Assembly (NCBI GenBank): GCA_002010665.1
Contig: MTON01000005.1
Location: 65,189-106,262 of the forward strand
Source: Candidatus Aminicenantes bacterium JdFR-78
GTDB lineage: Bacteria > Acidobacteriota > Aminicenantia > JdFR-78
Direction of reading: 5' to 3'
Length of the DNA: 41,074 nt
Under the pieces are notes generated by a model. That model saw nothing but the letters and a program-made list of their open reading frames with translations, had not been told where the DNA came from and ran no database searches. How positions within the stretch are numbered: the first letter of the stretch is position 1; every line of letters begins with the position of its first letter. Below, one piece after another: positions 25,927 through 30,549 of this stretch. A program made the translations under genes and the position numbers.

Positions 25927-28605
25927 ATGATAAATGCAAAAAGAATAATAATATTTTTTCTTTTTATTTTCCTTCTTAATTATTGCAAGTCAATAAAAAT
26001 CTTCGAGATAAAAGAGGGTCAATTATTTCGATTTATTGACCATTTAGAAGAGAAAAATATCATTGATACACCTTTAAAAAATTTAATAAAAAATTTTGAA
26101 TTAATAGAAGAAGATTTAACAGGGAAATGGAAATATTTACCTGAATTTTCTGATCCAAAATTTGATGTATGGGGGGTATCTACTGAATTTCCAGTCTTAG
26201 GTATCAATGAAAATCAGAAGCCTGAAGGTATGGAGCTACTAAGAGAGGATAGGAGCGTGAAATTTTTTAGAGAAAAAGATGAAAAGGATGAATATTGGAA
26301 ATGGGTAAAAGTTAACAAAATTGTAAGCATAACGAGTCATAAAAATTACAGCGGGAAATTGAGAGGAGTAATATTAAAAGAAAACGAACCTCTGGAATTA
26401 GATGTTTTTTTCCCAGATAGTGAAATTATACTTGACATTGTAGCTGTGAATCCAAATGTGGAAATTTCTATTCCTATTGTAAAAGTATATTTAAATAATA
26501 TATTAATAGAAAAATTCCCAGTAACTCGAAAAAAGTTTTATCGTGTTAGAGAGAAGGTAAAAATCGGCAAATATAAATTGAGACTTGAATATTCTAATAC
26601 AAAATATAAAAATGTCCCATTAGAAAATAGATACGTTGTAATTGGAATGATAAAAATCTCCTCTCCAAAAGATGTAATTTTACTTTTCCATAAGAAAGAA
26701 GAGCTTAGACCCAGTAAATTAAATAACAAATATAAAGTTAGATATTACGCTATTCTGGAACAAAAAGTAAGCTCCCTTCAACGAAAAGGGATATTGAAGT
26801 TATTTGATATTCAAAGTAAATATGACATCAATGATTATGATATTAAAAGCAATCCTTATCAGATAAAGAAAAAAATCCCTTTAAATGAATTTCACCTAAA
26901 TATTCTTTTTTCTCCCCCAAGAAGTGAATATAAATTTGATTTAAAAATCTCTTCTGACTCAATTTTGGAGTTTGGTTGTGGAATTTTTGATAGAAATTTC
27001 GATAGACAGGGAAATGGAGTCAATTTTATAATCACCCTAGAAACTGAAAAAGAGAGAAAAATATTATTTTCTAAAAATCTTAATCCTTTCAAAAATGTAC
27101 AGGATAGAGAAATTTTTATGCACAGAATCGATTTATCTTCATTTAAAAATAGAAAAATAAAATTATCTTTTATTACAGAAAGGGAAGAGAAAGGAAGAAA
27201 TTCAAAAATTGAACCAGCATTTTGGTTTAATCCAATAATTTATTCATTAGAAGAACCGAAAAAAGAAAAACCAAATATAATACTGATTTCCATTGATACT
27301 TTACGAGCTGACCATCTCAGCTGCTATGGGTATAAAAGAGCTACCTCTCCTAACATTGATAAACTAGCGAGGGATGGAGTGCTTTTTCTTAACTGCTATA
27401 GCTCAACCTCTTGGACTTTACCTGCTCATATATCTCTATTTACTTCATTAAATTCATATTATCATCAAGTATACTTTCCCTTCCAAAAAATGGATGAAAA
27501 ATTAATTACTCTTACTGATATTCTACGAAATAATAATTATTTCTGTGCTGCATTTACAGGAGGTGGATATCTTAGCGCTAAATATGGTTTTGCAAAAAGC
27601 TTTGATACTTACAAGGAACTTAAGATAAAGGGAAATGTTTCTCTTAGATATGATGAAGTTGAATTACTCTCAAAAGATTTATTAGATTGGTTAGAAAACA
27701 ATAAAAAGAAAAAATTTTTTCTTTTTCTCCATACATATCAACCTCACGACCCCTACGCAAATTTATCTTCTATTGGAAAACTCTTTTTAAACAAAAATCA
27801 CAAATGGGATCAAATAAATTTAGGAGAAATTTTTAATGAGGGAAAAAATGATAGATTTTCAATTAGCTTTACTCCGGAAGAGAAAGAAAATATTATCGCA
27901 TTATATGATGGGGAAATCAGGTATACAGATGAATATTTTATTAAGCCCTTAATTGATAAATTAAAAAGTTTGAATTTATACAACAACACTTTAATAATAC
28001 TTACAAGTGATCATGGAGAAGAATTTTATGAACATAAAGCATGGCTCCATGATCATAGTCTTTACAACGAAGCCATTAAAATTCCTCTGATAATCAAATT
28101 TCCCAATTCAAAATTTCGAGGGAAAAAAATTGAACAAACTGTTCGACTAATAGATATTATGCCTTCTATATTGGATTTTTTGAAAATTAAGTATTCACGC
28201 TTTAATTTAGAAGGAAAAAGTTTCATAAATTTACTCAATAATAAAAAAGACAGTAGAATTGTTATTTGCGATTTAGCTCTTAGAAAATTCCGAAACCCTT
28301 ATCCAACGGTTATTTCATTAATCAAAGGAAACCTAAAACTTATCATTAATAAAAGAATAATATCGCCTTATGTAAAAAAAATTTGCAGCAATTTTAAGGA
28401 ATATAAAGTTGAATTATATGATATCAAAAAAGACCCAAAAGAAACTGTAAATTTAGCGAAACGGAGAGAATATCAAAGAATCATAAGGGAGCTAATAAAT
28501 ACTATAGAAAGCTATTATAAAGAGCAAAAAAAATCAGAAACTCAGGAAGTGGAATTAGATAAGGAATTAAAACAAAGATTAAAAGCTTTAGGCTACATTA
28601 AATGA
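25927..28605 (+). CDS. Sulfatase-fold lipoprotein with large N-terminal beta-rich region
   Basis: An 892-residue member of the alkaline-phosphatase/sulfatase superfamily. Residues 1-20 are a lipoprotein signal with lipobox LLNYC. About 430 residues of beta-rich sequence with no recognised family follow. The catalytic domain starts near 451: Asp457 (ISIDTLRADHLS) and Asp695-His696 (TSDHGEE) are metal ligands. At the nucleophile site the sequence is SWTLPAH with Thr497, where true sulfatases have C/S-x-P-x-R. No formylglycine can form, so Thr-based hydrolysis or transfer of a phosphate or other ester is more likely than classic sulfatase action (inference). TYQPHDPY is a family motif. The TGA overlaps the next gene's ATG by 4 bases. 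Confidence 0.85.
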   Translation: MINAKRIIIFFLFIFLLNYCKSIKIFEIKEGQLFRFIDHLEEKNIIDTPLKNLIKNFELIEEDLTGKWKYLPEFSDPKFDVWGVSTEFPVLGINENQKPEGMELLREDRSVKFFREKDEKDEYWKWVKVNKIVSITSHKNYSGKLRGVILKENEPLELDVFFPDSEIILDIVAVNPNVEISIPIVKVYLNNILIEKFPVTRKKFYRVREKVKIGKYKLRLEYSNTKYKNVPLENRYVVIGMIKISSPKDVILLFHKKEELRPSKLNNKYKVRYYAILEQKVSSLQRKGILKLFDIQSKYDINDYDIKSNPYQIKKKIPLNEFHLNILFSPPRSEYKFDLKISSDSILEFGCGIFDRNFDRQGNGVNFIITLETEKERKILFSKNLNPFKNVQDREIFMHRIDLSSFKNRKIKLSFITEREEKGRNSKIEPAFWFNPIIYSLEEPKKEKPNIILISIDTLRADHLSCYGYKRATSPNIDKLARDGVLFLNCYSSTSWTLPAHISLFTSLNSYYHQVYFPFQKMDEKLITLTDILRNNNYFCAAFTGGGYLSAKYGFAKSFDTYKELKIKGNVSLRYDEVELLSKDLLDWLENNKKKKFFLFLHTYQPHDPYANLSSIGKLFLNKNHKWDQINLGEIFNEGKNDRFSISFTPEEKENIIALYDGEIRYTDEYFIKPLIDKLKSLNLYNNTLIILTSDHGEEFYEHKAWLHDHSLYNEAIKIPLIIKFPNSKFRGKKIEQTVRLIDIMPSILDFLKIKYSRFNLEGKSFINLLNNKKDSRIVICDLALRKFRNPYPTVISLIKGNLKLIINKRIISPYVKKICSNFKEYKVELYDIKKDPKETVNLAKRREYQRIIRELINTIESYYKEQKKSETQEVELDKELKQRLKALGYIK

Positions 28606-30194
28606 AAAAAAAGCTATATGTTATATTCCTTATTTTCATCTTTACTTGTAATTGTTCTAAACTAACTAAAACGAATTTAATTCTTATTACTTTAGACACT
28701 CAAAGAGCAGATTTTATAAGCGCTTATTCCCCAAAAAATTCAAACACCCCAAATATTGACTGGCTTGCAAAAAACGGAATTTTATTTGAAAATTGTTATA
28801 GTTTAATTCCAATAACACTTCCTTCCCATGCCACAATTTTCTATTCTAAGCAACCTTGGAAATTAAATATTTTCAATAATGGAGAAATCTTTAAATCTAA
28901 AAATAAGATATCATTAGCTGGATTTTTTAAAAAGAGAGGATATATTACAGGTGCTTTTATCTCTTTGGGGGTTTTAACTTCAAAATATGGATTAAGAAAT
29001 GGATTTGATTATTATTATGACAAATTTCCAAAAACAAGGTGGTATTTAAATGCTCGGGAAATAAATGTTCGAGTAATCAACTGGCTTAAAAAAAATTCGA
29101 ATAAAAAATTCTTTTTATGGATTCACTATTCTGATCCTCATGAACCATATGCTCCTCCTTATCTTCCTCCTAATTTCAGAGTTTATTTTAATAACAAAAT
29201 TTTACATGAAATTTATCTAAAAAGCTCAACAGTTTATTATTTAAAATTTAAATTAAAAAAGGGAATAAATTCTTTAAAGTTTGAAACTCTCAGTAACTTC
29301 CCTGAAATAGAAAATAAATATTTAATGAAAATAACCACATTAGAATTTAATAATTTTCCAAATTTAAAAATAAACTTTGAAAAGGGCTGGTTGATTGAAA
29401 AGAGAGAAAAAATAATTTATTTCTTAAAAAAAGAAGCTATCATCAAATTGATAAATAATTCCAATGAGGAAAGAGAAATAGAGCTTAAAATAGAAGGAGA
29501 ACCCCTCTTACCTCTAAGTGAAAAAAGGAATTTGTACAGACGCGAAACTGAATATATGGATGGTGAAATAGGAAAATTATTAGAAAAATTAAAAGATTTA
29601 AATCTTTTGAATAAAACCCATATAATTCTTGTAGGTGACCATGGAGAGGGACTTGGGGAATATAAAACTGCATGGGGAGGCCCACATTTTGGTCACATTC
29701 ATTTTCTTTATAGTATTTATTTAAAGGTTCCGTTTATCATTTATAACCCACATTCTTCCAGAAATGGGGTAAGGATCTCAGAAATAGTTAGTTTACTCGA
29801 TGTTGCACCTACAATCTTAGAAGGTATAATGGGCTGGAAAAAACCTGAATGGATGGAAGGAAGAAATCTTTTGAATAATGAGGAATTAGAAAAATCCAGA
29901 GAGATTTATACTGAAACCTATTCCCCTGAGTCATATTATGATAGATTCTCAATCATAAAGTTCCCCTGGCATCTAATTTTTACACCTAAAAAAGCTCAGT
30001 TCGAATTATTTAATATTGAAAAAGATCCCCTTGAGAAAAATAATATTTATCCATTAAGAAAAAATAAAAAAGAAATCATTAAGCTCAAAAAAAAGCTAAA
30101 TAAATATGTAGATTCAGCTTTGAAAACCCGTGCCTTTTTTGTGAAGGATGAGGAAACCTTAAAAATGTTAAAATCACTTGGTTATTTGAGGTGA
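28602..30194 (+). CDS. Second sulfatase-fold lipoprotein with a beta-rich insertion
   Basis: A 530-residue relative of the preceding protein, translated from an overlapping ATGA start. The lipobox is near FTCNC (residues 1-18). The metal ligand is Asp32 (ITLDTQRADFIS), the nucleophile site is ITLPSH with Thr72, and Asp346-His347 lie in VGDHGEGLGE. As in its neighbour, Thr replaces the formylglycine Cys/Ser and His replaces the motif Arg. Between the motif SDPHEPYAPP (near 180) and YMDGEIGKLL (near 313) sits an insert of about 110 residues of beta-strand character, absent from simple family members. It could be a binding module. The C terminus ends in LKSLGYLR, like LKALGYIK in the neighbour, a shared tail. 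The substrate is unknown. Confidence 0.83.
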   Translation: MKKKLYVIFLIFIFTCNCSKLTKTNLILITLDTQRADFISAYSPKNSNTPNIDWLAKNGILFENCYSLIPITLPSHATIFYSKQPWKLNIFNNGEIFKSKNKISLAGFFKKRGYITGAFISLGVLTSKYGLRNGFDYYYDKFPKTRWYLNAREINVRVINWLKKNSNKKFFLWIHYSDPHEPYAPPYLPPNFRVYFNNKILHEIYLKSSTVYYLKFKLKKGINSLKFETLSNFPEIENKYLMKITTLEFNNFPNLKINFEKGWLIEKREKIIYFLKKEAIIKLINNSNEEREIELKIEGEPLLPLSEKRNLYRRETEYMDGEIGKLLEKLKDLNLLNKTHIILVGDHGEGLGEYKTAWGGPHFGHIHFLYSIYLKVPFIIYNPHSSRNGVRISEIVSLLDVAPTILEGIMGWKKPEWMEGRNLLNNEELEKSREIYTETYSPESYYDRFSIIKFPWHLIFTPKKAQFELFNIEKDPLEKNNIYPLRKNKKEIIKLKKKLNKYVDSALKTRAFFVKDEETLKMLKSLGYLR

Positions 30195-30198
30195 AAAA

Positions 30199-30549
30199 AT
30201 GATTAAAAAAACAGAGAAACCATGGGGATACGAATTATTGTTTGCCTTAACGGATTCCTATGCTGGAAAAGTAATAAAAATACATGCTGGACATAGACTA
30301 AGTTACCAGTATCATGAGATTAAAGAGGAAACAATATATCTTCAGGAAGGAAAGATGAAACTTATTGTAGAGGAAAACGGCGAAAAAAAGGAAAAAATAC
30401 TTGAAAAAGGTAATAGCTATCATATTCCTCCAAAATTAAAGCACAGAATGGAAGCGATTGAAGATTGCACTATATTTGAAGTATCAACACCTCATCTTAA
30501 TGATGTTGTCCGCCTTGAGGATGATTACGGGCGTTTAAATAAAAAATAA
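30199..30549 (+). CDS. Small cupin, mannose-6-phosphate isomerase-like
   Basis: A 116-residue single-domain cupin. The opening KPWGYELLFA and the metal motif HAGHRLSYQYHEIKEETIYLQEG (split as HAGHRLSYQYH and the Glu after it), with a later His in PPKLKHRM, resemble the C-terminal cupin of type II phosphomannose isomerase/GDP-mannose pyrophosphorylase. Sugar-phosphate isomerisation or sugar binding is possible, but stand-alone cupins of this type have varied roles. A good ribosome binding site (GAGGTGA) overlaps the end of the upstream gene, 4 bases away, so it is probably the third gene of the sulfatase-fold operon. Its end is 6 bases from the convergent ssb gene. Confidence 0.82.
   Translation: MIKKTEKPWGYELLFALTDSYAGKVIKIHAGHRLSYQYHEIKEETIYLQEGKMKLIVEENGEKKEKILEKGNSYHIPPKLKHRMEAIEDCTIFEVSTPHLNDVVRLEDDYGRLNKK

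Follow-up and report, generated by a model that had tools for sequence, protein, structure and literature searches.

The window analysed here is a 41,074-nucleotide stretch of the genome of Candidatus Aminicenantes bacterium JdFR-78 (Acidobacteriota; contig MTON01000005.1, positions 65,189 to 106,262), and it contains two adjacent sulfatase-fold genes, the open reading frames ORF1 (25927-28605, 892 residues) and ORF2 (28602-30194, 530 residues), at the coordinates given by a first-pass annotation; these and all window features below lie on the + strand. Judged from sequence and predicted structure, the two products are proposed to be exported, lipid-anchored phosphodiesterases that use a Thr nucleophile and act on glycans or lipids of the envelope or cell surface, a reading to which a probability of about 0.5 is given. 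The genes are coupled, as had been annotated, through a 4-base ATGA overlap (28602-28605). Profile search places both products in the PF00884 superfamily (curated cut-off 25 bits, profile length 301), with matches over profile positions 1-299 for ORF1 (E 8.4e-45, 153.8 bits) and 2-297 for ORF2 (E 4.8e-39, 134.9 bits).

Active-site residues and their conservation

The position of the formylglycine residue is occupied by Thr497 in ORF1 (SSTSWTLPAH, codon 27415-27417) and by Thr72 in ORF2 (IPITLPSH, codon 28815-28817), the predicted nucleophiles, and the sulfatase motif C/S-x-P-x-R reads T-L-P-A-H and T-L-P-S-H, respectively. In an independent profile alignment, the Ser-x-Pro-x-Arg of E. coli AslA pairs with Thr72-x-Pro-x-His76 of ORF2. 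The second sulfatase signature, G-K-x-H, is absent, its position reading FTGGGY and FISLGV in the two window proteins. In a residue table of 30 Acidobacteriota loci aligned with E. coli reference proteins, the formylglycine sulfatases mostly show DD / CxPxR / GKWH / DNG / K, and the Thr group shows DT / TLP(S/A)H / no GKWH / HxxxPHxPY / DHGE / H, with all of the sulfatase-only residues (Arg at +4, GKWH and the late Lys) replaced. The DT and DHGE elements alone do not discriminate between the groups, because YidJ has both together with a Cys nucleophile; the nucleophile, Arg, GKWH and Lys do.

The first predicted metal ligand is Asp457 in ORF1, followed by Thr458 in place of the second sulfatase Asp (codons 27295-27300), and Asp32 in ORF2 (28695-28697). 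His607 of ORF1 (PHDPY, 27745-27747) aligns with the His of GSHGP in E. coli EptA, and its ORF2 counterpart is His180 (DPHEPY, 29139-29141). The DHGE element, which provides a predicted pair of metal ligands and a Glu, comprises Asp695-His696-Gly697-Glu698 in ORF1 (28009-28020) and Asp346-His347-Gly348-Glu349 in ORF2 (29637-29648), and the sulfatase Lys position is taken by His708 in ORF1 (28048-28050) and His365 in ORF2 (GHIH, 29694-29696). Asp32, Thr72, His180, the DHGE residues and His365 of ORF2 are invariant among the sequences compared. The metal ligands had been annotated as kept; the set nevertheless differs from that of sulfatases, with Asp-Asp...Asp-Asn changed to Asp-Thr...Asp-His.

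The genome contains nine PF00884 sulfatase-fold proteins, all with Thr at the nucleophile position, in the motifs TLPAH (ORF1), TLPSH (ORF2 and four others), TFPSH, TLES and TLAS (one each); a tenth, weak match is phosphopentomutase-like by inspection. Four of the nine have C-terminal repeats past the enzyme domain, which are tetratricopeptide repeats (TPR) according to PDB matches, and a PDB profile search that included these paralogues was dominated by TPR matches. Among 181 homologous ORFs in the loci compared, counted where a residue is present at the column, Thr occupies the nucleophile column in 173/175, the first-ligand Asp (ORF1 Asp457) is kept in 171/172, His607 in 176/176, the Asp and His of DHGE in 179/179, and His708 in 177/179. 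Of the two exceptions, L101 is a true Cys sulfatase, and L076 is LtaS-like, with a Thr that falls one position off the column in this alignment. Since 9/9 paralogues and 173/175 homologues carry Thr, the replacement of the formylglycine residue that was first annotated is no chance occurrence or misalignment artefact. A search for viral relatives returned two weak matches only.

Catalytically dead relatives with binding or structural roles would agree with the outcome of a literature search, which gave no experimental activity for the Thr-type group. Retention of the Asp, Thr, His, Asp-His-Gly-Glu and His residues in ~98-100% of the homologues that have a residue at the position in question speaks against this explanation, which is considered quite improbable, and such near-invariance at predicted catalytic positions argues for activity. 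The similar C-terminal ends of the two proteins (LGYIK/LGYLR), previously taken as a sign of a common substrate, lose that meaning because the LGY stretch is family-wide rather than pair-specific, being shared by every one of the nine paralogues and by the majority of homologues.

Phylogeny, predicted fold and maturation

In the phylogenetic tree, a single branch separates 55 Thr sequences from 31 Cys/Ser sequences with a support of 100/99, and its support is 98 after deletion of the active-site columns. The pair does not group with the Cys/Ser sulfatases, and placement inside the formylglycine clade, which the first-pass annotation had named as evidence against its reading, did not occur. The tree is unrooted and covers the relation of the two groups irrespective of the direction of change between Thr and Cys/Ser. 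When included, EptA, LapC, OpgB and the LtaS-like protein have branches so long (1.5-3 changes per site) that their positions are unreliable, and these sequences were therefore omitted from the careful tree; NPP was part of no tree.

AlphaFold2 models of the two proteins have mean predicted local distance difference test (pLDDT) scores of 92.0 (ORF2) and 86.8 (ORF1), and in overall fold both lie closest to solved structures of S1 sulfatases and of phosphonate monoester hydrolases. In ORF1, a lipobox-like N-terminal signal with Cys20 is followed by ~410 residues of predicted beta-rich domains (25999-27246, residues ~25-440), with no Pfam match, and then by the Thr-type sulfatase-fold domain (residues ~449-892). 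This N-terminal region is common to the orthologues, and its last part is also found in paralogue C4. ORF2 is a compact Thr-type sulfatase-fold protein with a predicted beta-sandwich inserted at residues ~190-302 (29169-29507), following the HxPY motif between SDPHEPYAPP and the YRRETEYMD helix; the insert differs among orthologues.

Each model has a single short N-terminal signal or anchor helix and no multi-pass transmembrane domain. Of the earlier claim that both are lipoproteins, export stands, and the sequences suggest that ORF1 and ORF2 are probably lipid-anchored: Cys20 of ORF1 is invariant in four orthologues, and the lipobox Cys lines up with the canonical LTGC/FLAC/MPGC of many orthologues. 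On the other side, the lipoboxes in the window (LLNYC and TCNC) are non-canonical, and in some ORF2 orthologues a Cys-less membrane anchor takes the place of the lipobox.

The Thr-x-Pro-x-His motif resembles the nucleophile motif of NPP enzymes, and PF01663 matches above its curated cut-off, suggesting two-metal NPP-like phosphodiesterases or phosphomonoesterases with nucleotides or other small extracellular molecules as substrates. The PF01663 matches are local stretches, the best covering just ~65-77 residues around the nucleophile, no second metal site was recognised, and the global fold matches are S1 sulfatases, making this an unlikely assignment. GlcNAc-phosphodiesterases (PMC10704324) were likewise rejected as a model, since their fold is of another type (EEP).

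A convincing formylglycine-generating enzyme (FGE) or above-cutoff maturase appears to be lacking from the genome, a strong but not absolute result because the genome is 96.8% complete. The sole PF03781 match is an FGE-like domain at the C-terminal end of a prolyl-oligopeptidase-like fusion protein (L008, G000:C1:143500-148500), in which the usual first of the paired Cys residues is absent by inspection, and the best match to the anaerobic maturase (anSME) model in the genome scores 99 bits (cut-off 349). A relative with the same gene pair (G022) lacks a PF03781 match altogether, and some relatives retain Cys sulfatases (e.g. L161 in G019). PF03781-type matches in open frames of ~900 residues, like the L008 fusion, recur across many relatives.

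The S1-sulfatase fold and C-terminal subdomain would also suit true sulfatases working without formylglycine. This is the least probable of the explanations considered, given the joint loss of Arg, GKWH and Lys, the clean split of Thr from Cys/Ser sequences, and the argument that Thr is unable to yield formylglycine (PMC5066984). The trees, the residue table and the maturase searches together bear out the first-pass view of a Thr site of the phosphodiesterase or phosphotransferase kind rather than that of a formylglycine sulfatase.

Proposed reaction, pairing and neighbourhood

In the residue table, the Glu, Thr, GSHGP His, DHGE and YLHG His of E. coli EptA align with the Thr-group residues, and the Thr group has the site set of phosphoethanolamine (PEtN) transferases, namely a Thr nucleophile, acidic, Asp and His ligands, and two active-site His residues, with Asp rather than Glu as first ligand. 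EptA and MCR-1 are presumed to correspond residue by residue at this site. The MCR-1 site consists of Glu246, Thr285, Asp465 and His466 (Zn1), together with His395, His478 and Glu468, and phospho-Thr285 is present in an MCR-1 crystal (PMC5216409).

The mechanism proposed here is modelled on the aligned PEtN transferase site. The residues, their conservation, the predicted fold, the missing maturation system and the gene pairing are direct results, and the reaction, the metal, the substrate and the preference for hydrolysis over transfer are inferred. One divalent metal, bound by Asp457, Thr497, Asp695 and His696 (Asp32, Thr72, Asp346 and His347 in ORF2), would activate the Thr, which would attack the phosphodiester phosphorus to form a phospho-Thr intermediate; His607 and His708 (His180 and His365 in ORF2), with Glu698 (Glu349 in ORF2), would hold the phosphate and aid its release to water. 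The substrate would be a substituent joined through phosphate to a glycan or lipid of the envelope or surface. Specificity would be set in ORF1 by its N-terminal beta-domains and in ORF2 by its beta-sandwich insert, and the two enzymes may accordingly act on different linkages.

Alternatively, the phospho-group could pass from the phospho-Thr to a hydroxyl of a glycan or lipid at the surface, which would thereby gain phosphoethanolamine, phosphoglycerol or a similar group. Such phospho-group transferases would fit the match of the active-site set to EptA/MCR, the weak NCBIfam matches to EptA and YejM, and the glycosyltransferase genes that adjoin family members in L056, L060, L061 and L079. 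EptA and LtaS depend on their membrane domains for transfer, their soluble parts alone being capable of hydrolysis only (PMC7576196); since ORF1 and ORF2 have no multi-pass membrane domain, hydrolysis is considered, at moderate confidence, the likelier reaction. Better matches of the pair to arylsulfatases and S1 folds, and the lack of an adjoining biosynthetic cluster in the window, further weaken the transferase explanation, which is regarded as possible but doubtful.

Returning to the phosphodiesterase proposal, proximity to glycosyltransferases lends weak support to surface-glycan substrates, as a count without a background rate; one is also found, by sequence inspection, near paralogue C4 in the window's genome, and L061 additionally contains a carbamoyltransferase. 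Against the proposal, glycosyltransferases lie near family members in just 9/80 loci, and the fold search with the predicted models finds the S1 sulfatases nearest in overall fold. The fold, however, does not decide the chemistry, because formylglycine members of the S1 fold include phosphonate and phosphodiester hydrolases.

Pairing of the ORF1 and ORF2 types recurs in relatives, with the two genes adjoining in G022, G019, L054, L057, L058, L063 and L085, and in reversed order in L056. A same-strand family member lies within 300 bases of 13/54 ORF2-type genes and 11/12 ORF1/C4-type genes, counts that are rough, the loci having been picked by ORF2 similarity and many ending at contig edges. 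TPR-type paralogues are also often paired; in the window's genome, C5a and C5b form a second tandem Thr-type pair (L004:425-4809, G000:C5) with C-terminal TPR-like repeats on both proteins. More speculatively, and on balance improbably, the Thr-type S1-shaped lipoproteins might constitute a separate, class-wide family that catalyses a new reaction, such as removing or exchanging phosphodiester decorations on a surface polymer of Aminicenantes, where the paralogues of a pair would handle successive linkages.

A small, mannose-phosphate-isomerase-like cupin gene (30199-30549) starts 4 bases past ORF2 and may share its operon; it was not found near the orthologues in relatives and was rejected as a conserved partner. 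A link to Tol-Pal, which is adjacent in the window, was similarly set aside because the orthologues lie elsewhere, e.g. beside the Nuo (complex I) operon in L056. In L049, L052, L056, L057 and L085, all from Aminicenantes, the ORF2/ORF1 genes adjoin, and are divergent from, a row of genes, which in L049, L052, L057 and L085 matches the L056 Nuo operon by its layout of gene lengths. A promoter and terminator scan was uninformative, being near shuffled expectation.

Relation to known systems

The annotation of ORF1 and ORF2 bears on a wider problem, as many ‘sulfatase’ annotations probably include the Thr type. If the reaction of one compact member, ORF2, were known, uncultured Acidobacteriota would no longer be wrongly credited with sulfate-ester use, and an activity could be assigned to a large branch of the alkaline phosphatase superfamily.

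YejM/LapC/PbgA and LtaS, which also belong to this superfamily, are metalloenzymes that depend on Thr (PMC7576196), but are membrane-embedded and, as long-branch sequences, not placeable relative to the Thr clade. EptA and MCR-1 have the Thr nucleophile, Asp-His-Gly-Glu and two active-site His residues at positions aligned with those of the window pair, whereas their first ligand is Glu rather than Asp and the pair lacks their transmembrane domain; similarity is low, the profile alignment spanning only the DHGE half. The S1 formylglycine sulfatases and phosphonate monoester hydrolases provide the best PDB fold matches, sharing the overall fold and C-terminal subdomain, but the pair lacks C/S-x-P-x-R, GKWH and the late Lys and lies on the opposite side of a fully supported branch.

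The 2016 SulfAtlas paper reported Thr in 30/59 PF00884 seed members, which had not been shown to be sulfatases and were kept out of S1, and its authors warned that the PF00884 profile spreads false sulfatase annotations (PMC5066984). Because the replacement of Cys/Ser by Thr in PF00884 was reported there, the window pair is a well-supported instance of an already noted Thr-type group, probably mis-annotated as ‘sulfatases’ rather than something new; a literature search found no paper on Thr-type sulfatase-fold proteins in Aminicenantes. The excluded proteins resemble the pair in Pfam family and Thr substitution, but the paper singles out TXNXE, in contrast to the TLP(S/A)H motif and S1 architecture seen here. 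To this group the present analysis adds a class-wide expansion, a recurring pairing, and, as the alignments and models suggest, a transferase-like site set in an S1 body.

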